Under the pieces are notes generated by a model. That model made no database searches, had not been told where the DNA came from, and saw only the letters and a program-made list of their open reading frames with translations. From positions 1 to 34,183 of the IMG/VR virus record IMGVR_UViG_3300035698_035458: 34,183 nucleotides of DNA; one strand, given 5' to 3'. Of the stretch, positions 4,290-34,183 are shown one piece after another. Position 1 is the stretch's first letter. Every line of letters begins with the position of its first letter. The stretch is from a virus. Position numbers and translations under genes: made by a program.

Positions 4290-5153
4290 TTAGCCTTTGA
4301 GTGCCTCTTGAACAAACCGTGATTCTGGATTGTGAAATTCCTTCCCATAGTCAGATGTCGTGATCTCTGGCCTTACCGCGAGGATAAGGTTGTCCTCTGC
4401 TCTGGTCATGGCAACGTACATCAATCGCCGTTCTGCTTCGAGATCGCCACCGTTGATTGCCTGTTTACTTGGCAGGATCCCCTCATTACACCCTGCTATA
4501 ATTACCGTGGGCCATTCAAGACCCTTTGCGGCATGAATAGACATAAGCTGCAACTTCTCTCCATGGGATTCCTCGATCTCGTCTTGAAGGTCGTAGGTAG
4601 CCAGCCAGTCGAGGTAGTCTTGAAGCTTTTTTAATGGATTATTGTCGATCCATTCCATAACAAAGAGCGCCACGTCGAAAAAGATATCGCCCGCCTCAAG
4701 ACGTTCGGTTAATACTTCCACAACCTCATTAAGTGGTATGTCCAGCTCTTCGAATGTTGCTGTCCAGCCAACATCAGACCAGCAGGCAGCTCTCCACGTC
4801 TCAAAATGGTTTTCCCGCTGCTGGATAGCTTTCAACCTAATCTCGTTATATTCCTCTCTCGAAAGCCCGACCAGTTCACGAATTAAAAGAAATGAAAAGT
4901 TGTCATAAGGATTTACTATAAGTTTCAGGAACGCATGAAAGCGCCGGAATTCTTCGGAATTGGTGAGCGCGGTCTTTTTGCCGACATAAACATGATCAAT
5001 TCCTATCGCCGTCAATTCGTCGGAGAGTTTTTTGAGCAGGACGTGGACCCGGGCAATGATGGCATAATTTCCAAGATCTTCTCCTGCTTTTTGTAAATCG
5101 GACAGATGCCGTGCAATGCTCGCACTGTCCATATTTTCCATAATTTTTATCAT
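4290..5153 (-). CDS. UvrD/Rep-type helicase, C-terminal half (split gene)
   Basis: The second half of a superfamily 1 3'-5' DNA helicase, 287 residues from the ATG at 5153. It carries the 2B/2A region and late helicase motifs: motif V in MSIHAAKGLEWPTVIIAGCNEG and motif VI in ERRLMYVAMTRAEDNLIL. It lacks Walker A and B, which lie in the separate upstream gene at 5314-6198. GGGGG precedes the ATG, so it can be translated on its own. Excising the 154 nt between two five-G tracts (5163-5316) would put the two halves in one frame, so they probably derive from one gene of about 585 codons. The two peptides may still assemble into an active enzyme (inference). Confidence 0.85.
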   Translation of the reverse strand: MIKIMENMDSASIARHLSDLQKAGEDLGNYAIIARVHVLLKKLSDELTAIGIDHVYVGKKTALTNSEEFRRFHAFLKLIVNPYDNFSFLLIRELVGLSREEYNEIRLKAIQQRENHFETWRAACWSDVGWTATFEELDIPLNEVVEVLTERLEAGDIFFDVALFVMEWIDNNPLKKLQDYLDWLATYDLQDEIEESHGEKLQLMSIHAAKGLEWPTVIIAGCNEGILPSKQAINGGDLEAERRLMYVAMTRAEDNLILAVRPEITTSDYGKEFHNPESRFVQEALKG

Positions 5154-5161
5154 TGTTCCCC

Positions 5162-5296
5162 CTATGGATAAGCAACGTGAGACCAAGTGCGCCCCACTTT
5201 TATTTGACTAATGGTGCCAAAGTGAATCTTGAACATTTTTGCAATAAGCCTTTGAGACACCTTGCCGGAATGAAGCAACTTTTTAATGAGCCACAC
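5162..5296 (-). pseudogene. Helix-turn-helix fragment inside the helicase split
   Basis: The short segment separating the helicase halves encodes, from a GTG at 5296, 44 residues with the pattern of resolvase-like helix-turn-helix domains: LIKKLLHSGKVSQRLIAKMF followed by a second helix with TISQIKVGRTW and then SHV. This pattern is common at the ends of HNH homing endonucleases and in small phage DNA-binding proteins. The frame remains open upstream into the helicase 3' end without an ATG. Either it is the relic of an inserted homing-type gene or a tiny gene using the GTG, which has AGAGG a few bases before it. It ends 9 bases before the ATG of the C-terminal half. Confidence 0.5.
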
Positions 5297-5313
5297 TTCA
5301 CCTCTTCCATTCT

Positions 5314-6198
5314 TTACCCCCTCGCGCTTTTGGCAATTAGCGGCAATCTGATTTTGTTGTTTTCGATAAGCCTGTTTGACGCTTCAACAATATCAGGAAG
5401 GCTTCTGTAGTTGGTCTCAAGTCGGTAGATGTCGTAGTCGTCTTGGTGTTCGAGCAGATACCTCGGCAAGCCGCCCCGCCATTCGAAGATAGCTTGCGAA
5501 ATATCTCCCACTGTGAACAGCGCCGCCCCGCAAGCTTCCCTTAGCAGGTGAATGATGTCCCACTGCAATTTGTCTAAATCTTGATTCTCGTCCACCAGGA
5601 TATGCTTAAAACTCAAATACTGTTTGATTTGAGGAATTAGCATTTTAAGGCCGATCAAAAGCGATCCGTAGGTAAGGGCATTATTCTCGAAGCATCGCCT
5701 GATAAACTCCTTGAACAGTGGTCTGGTGGGGTCTTTTTCGGCCGGTTCAATGCCACGTTCATAGTAGTTTTTGAATGTCTGGTCGATTGTCTTTTTGGGG
5801 ATTTTCCAACTCTTTTTATATATACCCATATCAATAGCTGTTTCTTTAAGAAGGTACTGCGATTCCCATTCGCCGTAGACCGTGACGCTTTTTTGTTTCA
5901 ATCCGAGAAATTCCCCAAATCGATGGAGATATCTCAGAGCCAAAGAGTGCATGGTGCCCATGGCGACGTTATGCGCCTGCTTGCCTATTCGTGCCTCGAG
6001 GCGGGTTTGTATCTCCTGGGCGGCCTTCCGGGTGAAGGTAAAGGCACATATCTCGTAGGGACTGACCTTTTTGTTTTCTATCAGGTGAGCGATACGCTCG
6101 ATAAGGACAGCCGTTTTCCCAGATCCCGCACCGGCAAGAACGAGCGCCATGCGTGAATCCGTCATGACCGCTTCGGTTTGTTGTTTATCAAGAGTCAT
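5314..6198 (-). CDS. UvrD/Rep-type helicase, N-terminal half (split gene)
   Basis: The first half of a superfamily 1 helicase, 294 residues from the ATG at 6198. It has a Q-motif-like start (LDKQQTEAV), Walker A in LAGAGSGKTAVLIERI (about 20-35), motif Ia (CAFTFTRKAAQEIQ), motif II as VDENQDLDKLQWDII, motif III (VGDISQAIFEWRGG) and motif IV (ETNYRSLPDIVEASNRLI). It stops at KSARG, just where the 2A part would begin. The rest is encoded separately at 4290-5153. The start at 6198 is preceded by GGGGGCGGTG and overlaps the ATPase C-terminal gene by 11 nt. A longer frame to 6219 lacks a better start signal. The role is probably DNA unwinding in phage recombination with the adjacent ATPase. Confidence 0.87.
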   Translation of the reverse strand: MTLDKQQTEAVMTDSRMALVLAGAGSGKTAVLIERIAHLIENKKVSPYEICAFTFTRKAAQEIQTRLEARIGKQAHNVAMGTMHSLALRYLHRFGEFLGLKQKSVTVYGEWESQYLLKETAIDMGIYKKSWKIPKKTIDQTFKNYYERGIEPAEKDPTRPLFKEFIRRCFENNALTYGSLLIGLKMLIPQIKQYLSFKHILVDENQDLDKLQWDIIHLLREACGAALFTVGDISQAIFEWRGGLPRYLLEHQDDYDIYRLETNYRSLPDIVEASNRLIENNKIRLPLIAKSARG

Positions 6199-6805
6199 CG
6201 GCACCGCCCCCCAGGTCAATTACCCGCCAAAGCCCCTCCAGCTCTTCCCCGGTCCGGTCGTCTGGGTCGGAGATTGGATGGCATGTACTGACAATAAACT
6301 GCCCCATATCCCCACTACTCTCCATCATGATCAGGTCTTTTACAATCGCCTTGCCGTCCAGTTCTGCGGCCTCCTGAATAATAACATTCGCACCCAGGGC
6401 TTTGCACAGGGCGGCGTCAAACATGACCTTTTCGCCACCGCTAAGGCCGTCATAGGGTATTGGTATTGCCCCGTTAAACCAGCCAATAAAAGCATTGCCC
6501 TCCTCGCTGATAGTAAAGATCGGGTACCCCATCGGGAGCATTTGTGTCATTTTGTCACCGAGCGACTTGGCGGTTACGGCCACCGCTGCATTCTTTTGAG
6601 CCGTAAGTGTTTTTTTCTCCTCTTTCAGGGTAGCCAATTTGTTTTTGGCCACATCTGTTTCTACTACGAACTTGGCAGCCTCTTCGTCCATTCCCGATGC
6701 TTTAATGAAGACCTTTTCGTTTTCCCTGAGCTCTGCGAGTTTGGCATTGAGGCCGGTTATATGCTGTTCCATGACTTGCATGTCTATCATTGTTTCATTG
6801 CCCAT
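6188..6805 (-). CDS. SMC/RecF-like ATPase, C-terminal part (split gene)
   Basis: A 205-residue protein. The first 80 residues are a predicted coiled coil (VMEQHITGLNAKLAELREN and onwards). Then comes an ATPase tail with the ABC signature YDGLSGGEKVMFDAAL and a Walker-B-like strand ANVIIQEAAELDG, followed by a D/H-loop-like IVSTCHPIS. It lacks Walker A, which is in the gene upstream. The two genes are in the same reading frame, separated only by TGA ATA GTC before this ATG. AGGAGGGGG lies immediately before that TGA and can serve as the ribosome-binding site. The two peptides would need to associate to form the nucleotide-binding site. Confidence 0.82.
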   Translation of the reverse strand: MGNETMIDMQVMEQHITGLNAKLAELRENEKVFIKASGMDEEAAKFVVETDVAKNKLATLKEEKKTLTAQKNAAVAVTAKSLGDKMTQMLPMGYPIFTISEEGNAFIGWFNGAIPIPYDGLSGGEKVMFDAALCKALGANVIIQEAAELDGKAIVKDLIMMESSGDMGQFIVSTCHPISDPDDRTGEELEGLWRVIDLGGGADDS

Positions 6806-13268: not shown

Positions 13269-13472
13269 ATGGCAAAGGAACCGACCGATAATATCACGAT
13301 CACCGTACCGGAAACTCTACTGGAACATATTGACGACTACGCACACCGCAACGATCTGAATCGCTCACAGCTTACTTGCCGGGCTCTCCGCCAATTCCTC
13401 GGGGCTTCACTGGCTAAGAATCCCGACTTTTGGAAAGTATATAACGAAATCACCAACAATGGCAAATTTTAG
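13269..13472 (+). CDS. Ribbon-helix-helix (CopG/Arc-like) regulator
   Basis: A 67-residue protein. The strand NITITVPETLLEHIDDYAHR followed by a helix with NLNRSQLTCRALRQFL-like spacing (here DLNRSQLTCRALRQFL) is the ribbon-helix-helix fold, which binds DNA as a dimer through the paired strands. GAGGGGAACC precedes the ATG. It lies between the helix-turn-helix gene and the VRR-NUC gene. No toxin partner is adjacent, so I treat it as a transcription regulator rather than an antitoxin. Confidence 0.75.
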   Translation: MAKEPTDNITITVPETLLEHIDDYAHRNDLNRSQLTCRALRQFLGASLAKNPDFWKVYNEITNNGKF

Positions 13473-13477
13473 ATATT

Positions 13478-13864
13478 ATGAAAATTTTTAAAAATTATAA
13501 AAATTATCCACTTCTCCCCTATGAGCACATCGAGCAGGTCCAACTCTTCTGTTGGTCCGACTATTTTCCCGAACTAAAAAGAATGCACGCCATACCCAAT
13601 GGCGGGAAACGTAACAAGGTAGTAGCGGCGAAACTTAAAGCCGAAGGAGTAAAGCCTGGCATCCCTGATGTTTTTCTACCAAAGGCACGGGGCGGTTATC
13701 ACGGACTCTACATCGAAATGAAGCGGATCAGGAAGTCATCTACGTCTCAAACTCAAAAGGAAGTTCACGCGGATCTGAGAGCTGAAGGGTATAGGGTGGA
13801 AATCTGCAAGGGATGCCAGGCAGCAATACAGGTTATTGAGGAGTATTTAAAGATTGGAGCGTAG
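13478..13864 (+). CDS. VRR-NUC domain nuclease
   Basis: A 128-residue stand-alone VRR-NUC protein, a PD-(D/E)XK-type fold found in phages and in FAN1. Visible motif parts are E19 with Q20 in the first helix (EHIEQVQLFCW), the NGGKRNKVVAAKLKAEGVKP region, PD at 63-64 in GIPDVFLPKA, and the E80-M-K82 strand (LYIEMKRI), followed by Q91 and the helix KEVHADLRAEGYRV. These are the expected metal and catalytic positions. It may process branched DNA during replication or packaging. The sequence before the ATG is A/T-rich, with no strong ribosome-binding site. Confidence 0.85.
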   Translation: MKIFKNYKNYPLLPYEHIEQVQLFCWSDYFPELKRMHAIPNGGKRNKVVAAKLKAEGVKPGIPDVFLPKARGGYHGLYIEMKRIRKSSTSQTQKEVHADLRAEGYRVEICKGCQAAIQVIEEYLKIGA

Positions 13865-14003: not shown

Positions 14004-14342
14004 ATGGCAACATACGCAAAAGGCGTGAGGGAGGAAGTTTATAAGAAGTGTAAAGGCCACTGTGCTTATTGTGGTGTGAAGATCCCCTTCCGGCAAATGC
14101 AGATAGACCACGCCCAATCAAAGCTCAGGGGTGGTACGGACGGAACAGACAACTATCTCCCGGCATGTGTTTCATGTAATGCGTCAAAGGCAACGTACAC
14201 CCTTGAGGAGTTTAGGGAAAGGCTTGTGGGGGATGTGGCAAGGCTTCGAAGGGATTCTTCGAAGTTTCGAATATTGGAAAGATTTAAGCTCGTTAAGCCG
14301 TGGAAAAACGAAGTTGTTTTTTATTTTGAGAGGGTGGGGTAA
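14004..14342 (+). CDS. HNH endonuclease
   Basis: A 112-residue HNH nuclease with a zinc-ribbon frame: C20-x-x-C23 (CAYC), then I-D35-H36 (QIDHAQSKLRGGTDGTDNYL), N50, and C55-x-x-C58 (CVSC), followed by N59 and an Ala/Lys helix. DH...N...CxxC is the catalytic ββα-metal pattern. GAGGTGAGGT precedes the ATG. In phages such proteins nick or cut DNA in packaging or replication, or act as homing enzymes. The location upstream of the replication and terminase genes fits either. Confidence 0.87.
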   Translation: MATYAKGVREEVYKKCKGHCAYCGVKIPFRQMQIDHAQSKLRGGTDGTDNYLPACVSCNASKATYTLEEFRERLVGDVARLRRDSSKFRILERFKLVKPWKNEVVFYFERVG

Positions 14343-15296
14343 ATGGCAGACGGTAGAATGTTAAAGAAGAAGATATCTTTAAGTCGGAAACTTGCCAAAC
14401 TTGAATCTGACACCGGCAGGCTTATTTACACCTGGCTATTATCACATCTTGATATTGAGGGACGCTACCATGCCGATCCAGACATCATAAAAGGAACGAT
14501 TGTTCCCCGCCTAAAACACATCACCACAGACATAATTGAAGCCACCTTAAGAGATATGGCACAAAACGAGCTCATTATCCTCTATGAGGACAACGGCGAC
14601 CAATACTTACAGTATATCAACTTTAAAAACAATCAATCATTGCGGGAAGGTAAGGAGAAAAAATCAGAGATTTCACCACCAAACAGTACACCGCCCGACC
14701 ACCGCCCGACCACAGACGGGGCACAGACACCACAAGAGAAGATAAGAGAAGATAAGATAAGAGAAGATAAAAGCACCGACGAAGAAATTTCTCTCCCTGT
14801 TGATAACTCCAAGTCTGGCGCAGTCGAGAGTTCACCTGGTATTATCAGCCCGGACAATAACGCTGGTACGAAAAGGTGGATATTAAAACACACATACACC
14901 AACGTCTCGGATACTGCAAACCCGCCCTTAAAAAATGAACCTCCGGAAGAATGGATTGAGGAAATAAATACTGTCTGCCTTGAAGTTCAAAAACTGTTCC
15001 CGATGAAAGAATTTAACCTACCCTTCTTCCTGGCAAACCACAGGCCGGCACCTGGAAACGAACAGGCACACATGAAGGCCTTACCTCATGCGTTGAACTC
15101 TATCATCAAAAAGCGTACCCGAGGTGAACTCTTCACAGATCCACCCTATGGCTATGCTGAAAGGGTTTATAAAGACGAAATCCAAAACTACAACGCGGGG
15201 ATCTTCGAAGATGAAAATAAGAAGTATAAAGACGTTGGGGATTTTAAAACGGTTGGCAATGTCTTGCAAAAGATTCAGGCGGGGGCAGTACCGTGA
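14343..15296 (+). CDS. Replication initiator-like protein with foreign insert
   Basis: A 317-residue protein that begins directly after the HNH stop codon. The N-terminal 100 residues (RMLKKKISLSRKLAKLESDT, then LIYTWLLSHLDIEGRYHADP and EATLRDMAQNELIILYEDNG) have the winged-helix pattern of phage replisome organizers. A disordered, repeat-prone linker with KIREDKIREDK follows. Residues 158-192 are encoded by a 105-bp segment identical to the tail-fibre gene at 32878-32982, in the same reading frame. The protein then resumes at NPPLKNEPPEEWIEE with a C-terminal domain. The insert lies in the linker, so both domains may still work. It probably loads replication proteins on phage DNA. No helicase or loader is seen. 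Confidence 0.72.
   Translation: MADGRMLKKKISLSRKLAKLESDTGRLIYTWLLSHLDIEGRYHADPDIIKGTIVPRLKHITTDIIEATLRDMAQNELIILYEDNGDQYLQYINFKNNQSLREGKEKKSEISPPNSTPPDHRPTTDGAQTPQEKIREDKIREDKSTDEEISLPVDNSKSGAVESSPGIISPDNNAGTKRWILKHTYTNVSDTANPPLKNEPPEEWIEEINTVCLEVQKLFPMKEFNLPFFLANHRPAPGNEQAHMKALPHALNSIIKKRTRGELFTDPPYGYAERVYKDEIQNYNAGIFEDENKKYKDVGDFKTVGNVLQKIQAGAVP
14735..14770 (+). repeat. Tandem AGAGAAGATA repeats
   Basis: Imperfect tandem copies of a 10-base unit, AGAGAAGATA, inside the linker of the replication gene, encoding EKIREDKIREDK. A second short tandem repeat (CCGCCCGACCA twice) lies about 40 bases before it. The stretch is prone to slippage, and it lies just upstream of the 105-bp insert. In lambdoid phages, repeats in this gene often mark the replication origin, which is a possibility here (inference). 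Confidence 0.5.
14813..14917 (+). repeat. 105-bp exact repeat, copy 1 (in the replication gene)
   Basis: Identical over 105 bases to 32878-32982. It starts GTCTGGCGCAGTCGAGAG and ends CTCGGATACTGC, and the flanks diverge at once on both sides. Thirty-five codons are in the same frame in both genes. The encoded motif SPGIISPDNNAGTKRWIL is at home in fibre proteins, so this copy is the likely acquired one. Confidence 0.95.
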
Positions 15297-32731: not shown

Positions 32732-34183
32732 ATGGCTAATAATATTTATGGAGCAACTTCCCTGATCGGGGGTGGAACCGGAGCATTAGATGCAATCAAT
32801 GGCAATCTGCTGAACGATGGTGACGGGGCTGTAGTTATAAGTGGAACATATTCATACTTTTATCGATTAGATGCTACGTCTGGCGCAGTCGAGAGTTCAC
32901 CTGGTATTATCAGCCCGGACAATAACGCTGGTACGAAAAGGTGGATATTAAAACACACATACACCAACGTCTCGGATACTGCCTATAACGAAGAAACATG
33001 GAACGGAGTAATAAATGTAGCCCCAAGTAAAAATGCTGTGAGAGATAAGTTTGAATCACTTTACATCACTAACCACTACAACGCATCACGTTCTTTACGC
33101 CAAAAGGGATTCGGTTTAGACATCGATAGTGGTGCGGCTCAGGCAAATCACAACACAGCAGCCAATCGCTATACGATTGAAACTCCTGATGGTATGGAAA
33201 TTAATATTGGGGGTGTGAATTATAGGGCTGTTGCCGAGACAGAAATCAGCTTGAACGTAACCGCCAACTGGGACGCAGCAGGACAGACCGCTGTTTACGA
33301 GACTGCCGCAAATAGAGCAGGCAAAGATTTCTATGTTTACGCGGAAGAACCAGTCAGTGGAACGGCTCCGGCTTTTATCTTATCAGCTAATTCTACTAAT
33401 CCTGGTGGCAATACTCCGGCAGGCAATGCCAGAAGCACGAGCAATACACGTAAGATAGGTGGGTTTCATTGCCTCGGCGTTTCAGTCGGAGATATAGCCA
33501 ATCATGCCCTCTGTGATTATGTTGCAGGAGACGTTCTGTTTATGAGCGTGTGGGATTTAGAGAATAGACCGATTTCCTCTCCCGAAGGTATGGTGAAATC
33601 AATCAAGCACAGCATGACCAATGCAGACGATGCGGCAGTAGTAATTTTGGGTGCAGGGGTTTGGGTAGATATTTATCTCGCAAGTGGCACAGGGGCTTCT
33701 ACCGTGAGTGTGACTGGTGGAACGATTAGCGATACACGTGACTGGATGGACTTCAATGATGACTTTGCCGCAGTAGATAAGCAAATGCTGGGTGATGATG
33801 AATTTTCCCATATTGCTGCTGGAAGTAATGCTGAAACCAATATCTCAACATCCGCAGATCCAGTAACAACAGGTGGGCATTCCGACACAGCTGGACGTAG
33901 AATGATCTCAAATATCGGCTGTGAGGATTGTTGTGGGGCGATGATGCAATGGCTGAGAGACACGTCCGCCAATTATGATGATTCCATTGCAGCGGGCTGG
34001 CTTGCTCTTGCTGGAGATAAAGGAGATTTTTACCTACCCGTGGACACAGATGAAATTAAGCTGCTCGCGGGCGGTGGTTGGGCGTATGCGGCGTATTGCG
34101 GGTCGCGGTGTCGTTTAGCGCTTTATGGTCGCGTGTATACGGGTGCGTATAGCGGCGGGCGCGGGCGGAGCCGCGGGCTGTAA
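32732..34183 (+). CDS. Receptor-binding fibre with DGR-type variable C-terminus
   Basis: A 483-residue protein. The N-terminal part has fibre-like strands with a repeat-prone motif (YRLDATSGAVESSPGIISPD then NNAGTKRWILKHTYTN). The middle is Thr/Ser/Ala-rich (AEEPVSGTAPAFILSANSTN). The C-terminal 90 residues carry GCEDCCGAMMQWLRDTSANY, then LLAGGGWAYAAYCGSRCRLA and a tail GGRGRSRGL. This matches the C-type-lectin fold used by diversity-generating retroelement target proteins such as the tropism determinant of Bordetella phage BPP-1. It probably binds the host receptor. The window ends with its stop codon. A GGAAGGG-type site precedes the ATG. Confidence 0.85.
   Translation: MANNIYGATSLIGGGTGALDAINGNLLNDGDGAVVISGTYSYFYRLDATSGAVESSPGIISPDNNAGTKRWILKHTYTNVSDTAYNEETWNGVINVAPSKNAVRDKFESLYITNHYNASRSLRQKGFGLDIDSGAAQANHNTAANRYTIETPDGMEINIGGVNYRAVAETEISLNVTANWDAAGQTAVYETAANRAGKDFYVYAEEPVSGTAPAFILSANSTNPGGNTPAGNARSTSNTRKIGGFHCLGVSVGDIANHALCDYVAGDVLFMSVWDLENRPISSPEGMVKSIKHSMTNADDAAVVILGAGVWVDIYLASGTGASTVSVTGGTISDTRDWMDFNDDFAAVDKQMLGDDEFSHIAAGSNAETNISTSADPVTTGGHSDTAGRRMISNIGCEDCCGAMMQWLRDTSANYDDSIAAGWLALAGDKGDFYLPVDTDEIKLLAGGGWAYAAYCGSRCRLALYGRVYTGAYSGGRGRSRGL
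32878..32982 (+). repeat. 105-bp exact repeat, copy 2 (in the fibre gene)
   Basis: Identical to 14813-14917 and in the same reading frame. The encoded motif fits the surrounding fibre sequence (preceded by YRLDAT and followed by YNEETWNG), so this is probably the original copy. Confidence 0.95.
34070..34180 (+). other. Probable DGR variable region with GC-rich 3' end
   Basis: The last 37 codons of the fibre gene, starting at GGGW, contain only 9 adenines in 111 bases, and the final 30 bases (34151-34180) are 27 G or C. In diversity-generating retroelements, the template's adenines are changed at random in the variable region, and a GC-rich initiation site lies at its 3' end. The neighbouring part of the gene has a normal adenine content. 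Template repeat, reverse transcriptase and any accessory protein are absent from this window. Confidence 0.75.

Follow-up and report, generated by a model that had tools for sequence, protein, structure and literature searches.

We analyzed a virus record of 34,183 nt in its entirety (the window), which looks like a prophage cut off at gene boundaries. An integrase lies at the left edge of the record and a gene for an Mtd-like tail fibre stops at its last base; the genes between the two include those for a CI-like repressor, a VRR nuclease, an HNH nuclease, a replication initiator, a terminase, a portal protein and a capsid protein. The features that concern us are collected in Table 1. Elsewhere in the window, a UvrD-type helicase (4290-6219, minus strand) that is a single ORF in relative L006 occurs in two pieces. 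The stretch of about 150 nt that splits it encodes a helix-turn-helix tail like that of HNH endonucleases (phrog_59, E 6e-7) in a different reading frame, and is probably a homing-endonuclease remnant or a second small insertion.

Table 1. Position and supporting evidence of the features in the window
Feature	Position	Strand	Evidence
HNH endonuclease gene, directly upstream of the replication gene	14004..14342	+	PF01844, E 1.4e-8
Replication initiation protein gene	14343..15296	+	phrog_1408, E 9.1e-12; AlphaFold2 model
11-bp tandem repeats (iteron-like), CACCGCCCGAC x2.3	14689..14713		Repeat detection and family comparison
A-rich pentamer/15-bp array (possible unwinding element)	14734..14770		Repeat detection and family comparison
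DnaA-box-like site TTATCAACA, 6 bp before the insert	14798..14806	-	Aligned sites in L030, L046 and L044
Putative inserted copy (recipient), replication protein residues 158-192	14813..14917	+	Exact match to 32878-32982; absent from 59 relatives
Mtd-like tail-fibre/receptor-binding protein gene	32732..34183	+	PF21916, E 3.6e-11; phrog_11262, E 2.8e-35
Putative donor segment, fibre gene residues 50-84	32878..32982	+	Exact match; context conserved in other phages' fibres

An exact-repeat search of the record showed that a segment of the replication gene and a segment of the fibre gene are identical at 105 of 105 nt. Extension of the match was 0 to the left and to the right, with the flanks diverging at the first base on either side, just as an earlier note on this DNA had claimed. 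The pair is the sole exact direct repeat of at least 20 nt in the 34,183-nt record, in which no inverted exact repeats of at least 20 nt were found; by chance, a record this long would be expected to have a longest repeat of about 15 nt. With no differences over 105 sites, the rule of three puts the divergence of the copies under about 2.9% (95% bound). Both ORFs translate the segment as SGAVESSPGIISPDNNAGTKRWILKHTYTNVSDTA, so that the same frame and the 35 codons described before are correct. The shared frame carries little weight, however, because both of the remaining forward frames hold stops, and a forward insertion that kept the ORF had to use this one; it cannot count as independent evidence. 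The reverse strand is open in just one frame. An exact scan of IMG/VR with the core of the segment gave no further record, and a DNA search of annotated phages gave no match. The idea of a palindromic element was rejected, as the segment is non-palindromic (fold z-score of -0.03) and has only two copies in the record.

The AlphaFold2 model of the replication protein has a winged-helix-like domain (residues 4-97) and a helical domain (residues 202-297), with residues 117-196 lying between the two at pLDDT <50. The segment falls wholly inside this predicted disordered linker, in agreement with the position between two domains proposed for it in the earlier note. A PDB structure search with the model returned weak winged-helix matches alone (best E 0.03), and the C-terminal domain searched by itself gave no relatives. 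An alignment-based search yielded 60 loci of the replication protein family; together with those obtained earlier, sequences that take in the linker are available for 59 relatives (50 distinct). The 35 residues were sought in these proteins, as had been suggested, and are absent from all 59. Relative L030 aligns over the whole protein, both halves included, yet is without the segment. L030 has DNA in common with the window on both sides of the site, CTGTTGATAACTC.AA before it and AAACCCGCCC after it, and the 10-nt match on the right flank stands in a shifted frame. Minus the segment the linker of the window is shorter than that of L030, and plus the segment it is longer; both the length and the sequence of the linker vary freely among the relatives.

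The fibre gene offers a different picture. Residues 1-73 of the fibre are 55% identical to the fibre of L093, a sibling phage that also encodes a replication protein of the same family as that of the window, and they align at lower identity with L094 and with cyanophage S-SSM4. The left part of the segment is conserved in the fibre of L093 and in S-SSM4. Residues 79-110, VSDTAYNEETWNGV..APSKNAVRDKFESL, constitute a motif present in many other phages, and the motif VSDTAYNEETW, which crosses the right end of the segment, is likewise conserved in other phages. The N-terminus of the fibre (32732-33061) is itself a fusion of two modules, residues 1-73 and 79-110, each found separately in other phages. 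A search for the fibre module in plasmids found none. Since the repeated segment runs from the last part of the first module across the join into the second, and since both modules are known from other fibres, the fibre gene is the donor, and the comparison shows that copying went from the fibre gene to the replication gene. The reverse, with the replication protein as the ancestral owner of the segment and the fibre as the recipient of a copy, is hardly credible, and so is an old domain common to both: such a reading has the identity itself in its favour, nothing more, against 59 replication relatives that are without the segment and fibre relatives in which each half of the segment continues in the normal way. 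The recent copying from the fibre put forward in the earlier note is the best-supported reading.

We then considered how unusual such a repeat is. Among the 1.74 Mb of 50 related records, the long exact repeats proved to be overlaps of the record ends, 55-127 bp in length and resembling assembler k-mers; in one record, G048, matches between the two ends over 2 kb were also read as an end overlap. The longest interior exact repeat in this set is 79 bp, with a spacing of 0.9 kb (record G010, L141:15146 and 16064), and takes in the start codon of each of two small ORFs on the minus strand. A 56-bp exact repeat in record G044 (L134:2624 and 3896) is in the same frame, inside one ORF of 1,458 codons. 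The 105-nt copy is a true outlier in the 50-record sample. When 40 replication genes were compared with the rest of their own records in search of decayed self-copies, a copy from another gene was found in the window alone, and there was no sign that such inserts recur among them. Self-copy matches in L047 and L065 were chunk-boundary effects, that in L074 is the second origin-like copy (see below), and those in L039 and L073 are weak protein matches. The literature search, partial in coverage and so weak as evidence, found no described fibre-derived insert in a replication gene.

The reading as an insertion rests on one assembled metagenomic record, and the k-mer-like terminal overlaps of the related records invite the suspicion that the assembler, gap filling or a chimeric amplified molecule brought the fibre segment into the replication gene. 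However, a de Bruijn assembler swaps flanks at repeats but needs reads that bear the junction to place the segment beside replication sequence. Moreover, the flanks are paired correctly by homology, the two halves of the replication protein with L030 and the fibre context with L093 and L016; the ends are abrupt, the length preserves the ORF, and the repeat lies 18 kb inside the record. It is improbable that two chimeric joins would precisely keep an ORF. As both junctions are inside genes whose halves go together by homology, we regard an artefact of this kind as quite unlikely.

The tandem repeats that had been noted upstream of the segment are real, and their origin-like nature is new beyond the earlier note. 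The insert starts 42 bp past the pentamer array. Linkers of the family contain 10-11-bp tandem repeats, the unit of which differs in sequence between phages, followed by A-rich pentamers (AAGTT, AAGTA, AAGAT); wherever both were detected, the pentamer array comes after the 10-11-bp array. Arrays were found in 40 of 51 distinct replication ORFs, and array bases make up 5.9% of these ORFs as against 0.8% elsewhere. The lag-11 self-match score was 17.0, compared with 12.8 in synonymous-codon shuffles, with 11 strong cases against 0. Repeats in the protein cannot explain the 11-bp periodicity, as 11 is not divisible by 3. A combined detector run over 51 records (about 1.78 Mb) returned six sites, five in replication genes and one, in relative G030, intergenic and beside a DnaA box. 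The intergenic array follows CCTGTGGATAA, a perfect DnaA box. This iteron-pentamer copy (L123:10588-10662), preceded by CCTGTGGATAAG, is 81% identical to the element in the replication gene, and is a probable second origin about 20 kb from the first.

The DnaA-box-like site in the linker is restricted to four aligned family members, namely the window and three relatives, in which a Pro-Val-Asp-Asn stretch at the same alignment position is encoded as TGTTGATAA or TGTGGATAA. Enrichment of DnaA boxes across the family is not significant (6 of 51 genes, with 2.6 expected and a maximum of 7). Also in the window, an A+T-rich 19-bp repeat followed by the DnaA-box-like TTATCCACT (13467-13512) lies near the minimum of the cumulative GC skew at 13597, which coincides with a change of gene direction. 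Tandem repeats thus occur within the initiator gene with an A+T-rich stretch beside them, and we think that the linker of the replication protein probably also holds the replication origin of the phage.

The position of the segment, 6 bp from a DnaA-box-like site and in an origin-like linker, together with the lack of any difference between the copies, raises the possibility that the insertion was directed or selected, with the fibre peptide or its DNA working in the initiator or the origin (in spacing or in a protein contact) and identity being kept by recombination between the copies. We consider this unlikely, as the segment is absent from every relative examined, is predicted to be disordered and straddles two unrelated modules of the fibre, and the linkers of the relatives vary freely. 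It is more probable, and the explanation that we favour with fair confidence, that the segment is a recent, one-off templated insertion of about 105 nt of the fibre gene into the initiator linker beside the origin-like element, made by illegitimate, probably replication-linked copying through template switching or fragment capture and then tolerated. The donor is retained along with an exact copy, the recipient site is without the segment in the relatives, and the junctions show no long homology; about 4 nt at most are possible inside the ends, as judged against L030.

Under the templated-insertion explanation, a nascent strand or a broken end near the origin would most likely have taken the fibre gene, in its own or a sister genome, as a temporary template before switching back, or else a short fragment of the fibre gene would have been captured at a break. 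Either way, the fibre segment would have been copied to the edge of the origin-like element with the donor left intact, and joining would have used a few nucleotides of homology at most. The insert may have survived because this frame is open and because the linker is disordered and tolerant of length. We infer the template switch, the function of the origin and the neutrality of the insert from the sequence. That the HNH and VRR nuclease genes just upstream could be a source of breaks is speculative.

The copied DNA could also have passed through a reverse transcriptase, as cDNA from a diversity-generating retroelement that targets the Mtd-like fibre and that became integrated at the wrong place. 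The donor is of the Mtd type, the classic target of such elements, and the C-terminus of the fibre (33960-34183) resembles the variable region of an Mtd-type target. The window holds no template repeat and no reverse transcriptase was found among the scanned genes; as the record stops at the stop codon of the fibre gene, a retroelement may adjoin its end, outside. The segment, however, is N-terminal and does not come from the variable C-terminal end, and none of its 32 adenines is changed, although these enzymes mutate adenines. Mainly for the latter reason copying by such an element is disfavoured, and we hold it to be very improbable.

Mosaicism in phages is usually put down to exchange between phages. 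The window presents a datable and sequence-clean case in which a phage would have pasted a piece of its own gene into an unrelated gene, with both kept open, at a place where the DNA probably opens for replication. The event is single, well resolved and mildly surprising; a general hypothesis can be tied to it, with no support yet for recurrence. The hypothesis, which at present we think distinctly improbable, is that fragments of a phage's own genome are captured in frame at intragenic origins, and that part of the diversity of the initiator-family linkers is recycled self-DNA; it predicts that small self-derived inserts are enriched at intragenic origins. The linker of this family may also be usable to locate replication origins in uncultured phages. 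More speculatively, the direct repeats, being in frame, could recombine with each other to give a circle of 18 kb and to join the N-terminal part of the initiator to the C-terminal part of the fibre.

Several known systems invite comparison. Rickettsia palindromic elements, of about 100-150 bp, are tolerated in frame within genes; the segment shares this tolerance, but lacks the palindromic structure and is not a multicopy mobile element. Diversity-generating retroelements act on Mtd in BPP-1, and the donor gene in the window is similarly Mtd-like; the differences are the unaltered adenines, the wrong end of the gene and the lack of a reverse transcriptase among the scanned genes. Closer parallels are the templated insertions made by template switching or MMBIR in eukaryotes, which like the window show a short copy from a distant locus, abrupt joints and a retained donor (PMC8421209, PMC11724301). 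The window differs from these in that it is a phage genome, in that the same frame is open in two unrelated genes, in the origin-like site, and in that the process is read from sequence. Abrupt joints without evident homology are also found in the mosaicism of temperate phages by illegitimate recombination (discussed in PMC2327257), but in the window the copied DNA comes from 18 kb away in one and the same genome, and a copy was added instead of homologous modules being swapped.

Intragenic origins are established for the O gene of lambda (PMC3985674) and for gene 38 of SPP1, a phage with an AT-rich region for unwinding as well and with another origin at a different place (PMC6316719). Like lambda and SPP1, the window has tandem repeats inside the initiator gene; as in SPP1, an AT-rich stretch lies next to them, and the family to which the window belongs includes one relative with a second copy of the repeats. 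Unlike either, the putative origin of this family is made up of 10-11-bp repeats and A-rich pentamers, sometimes with a DnaA-box-like site.
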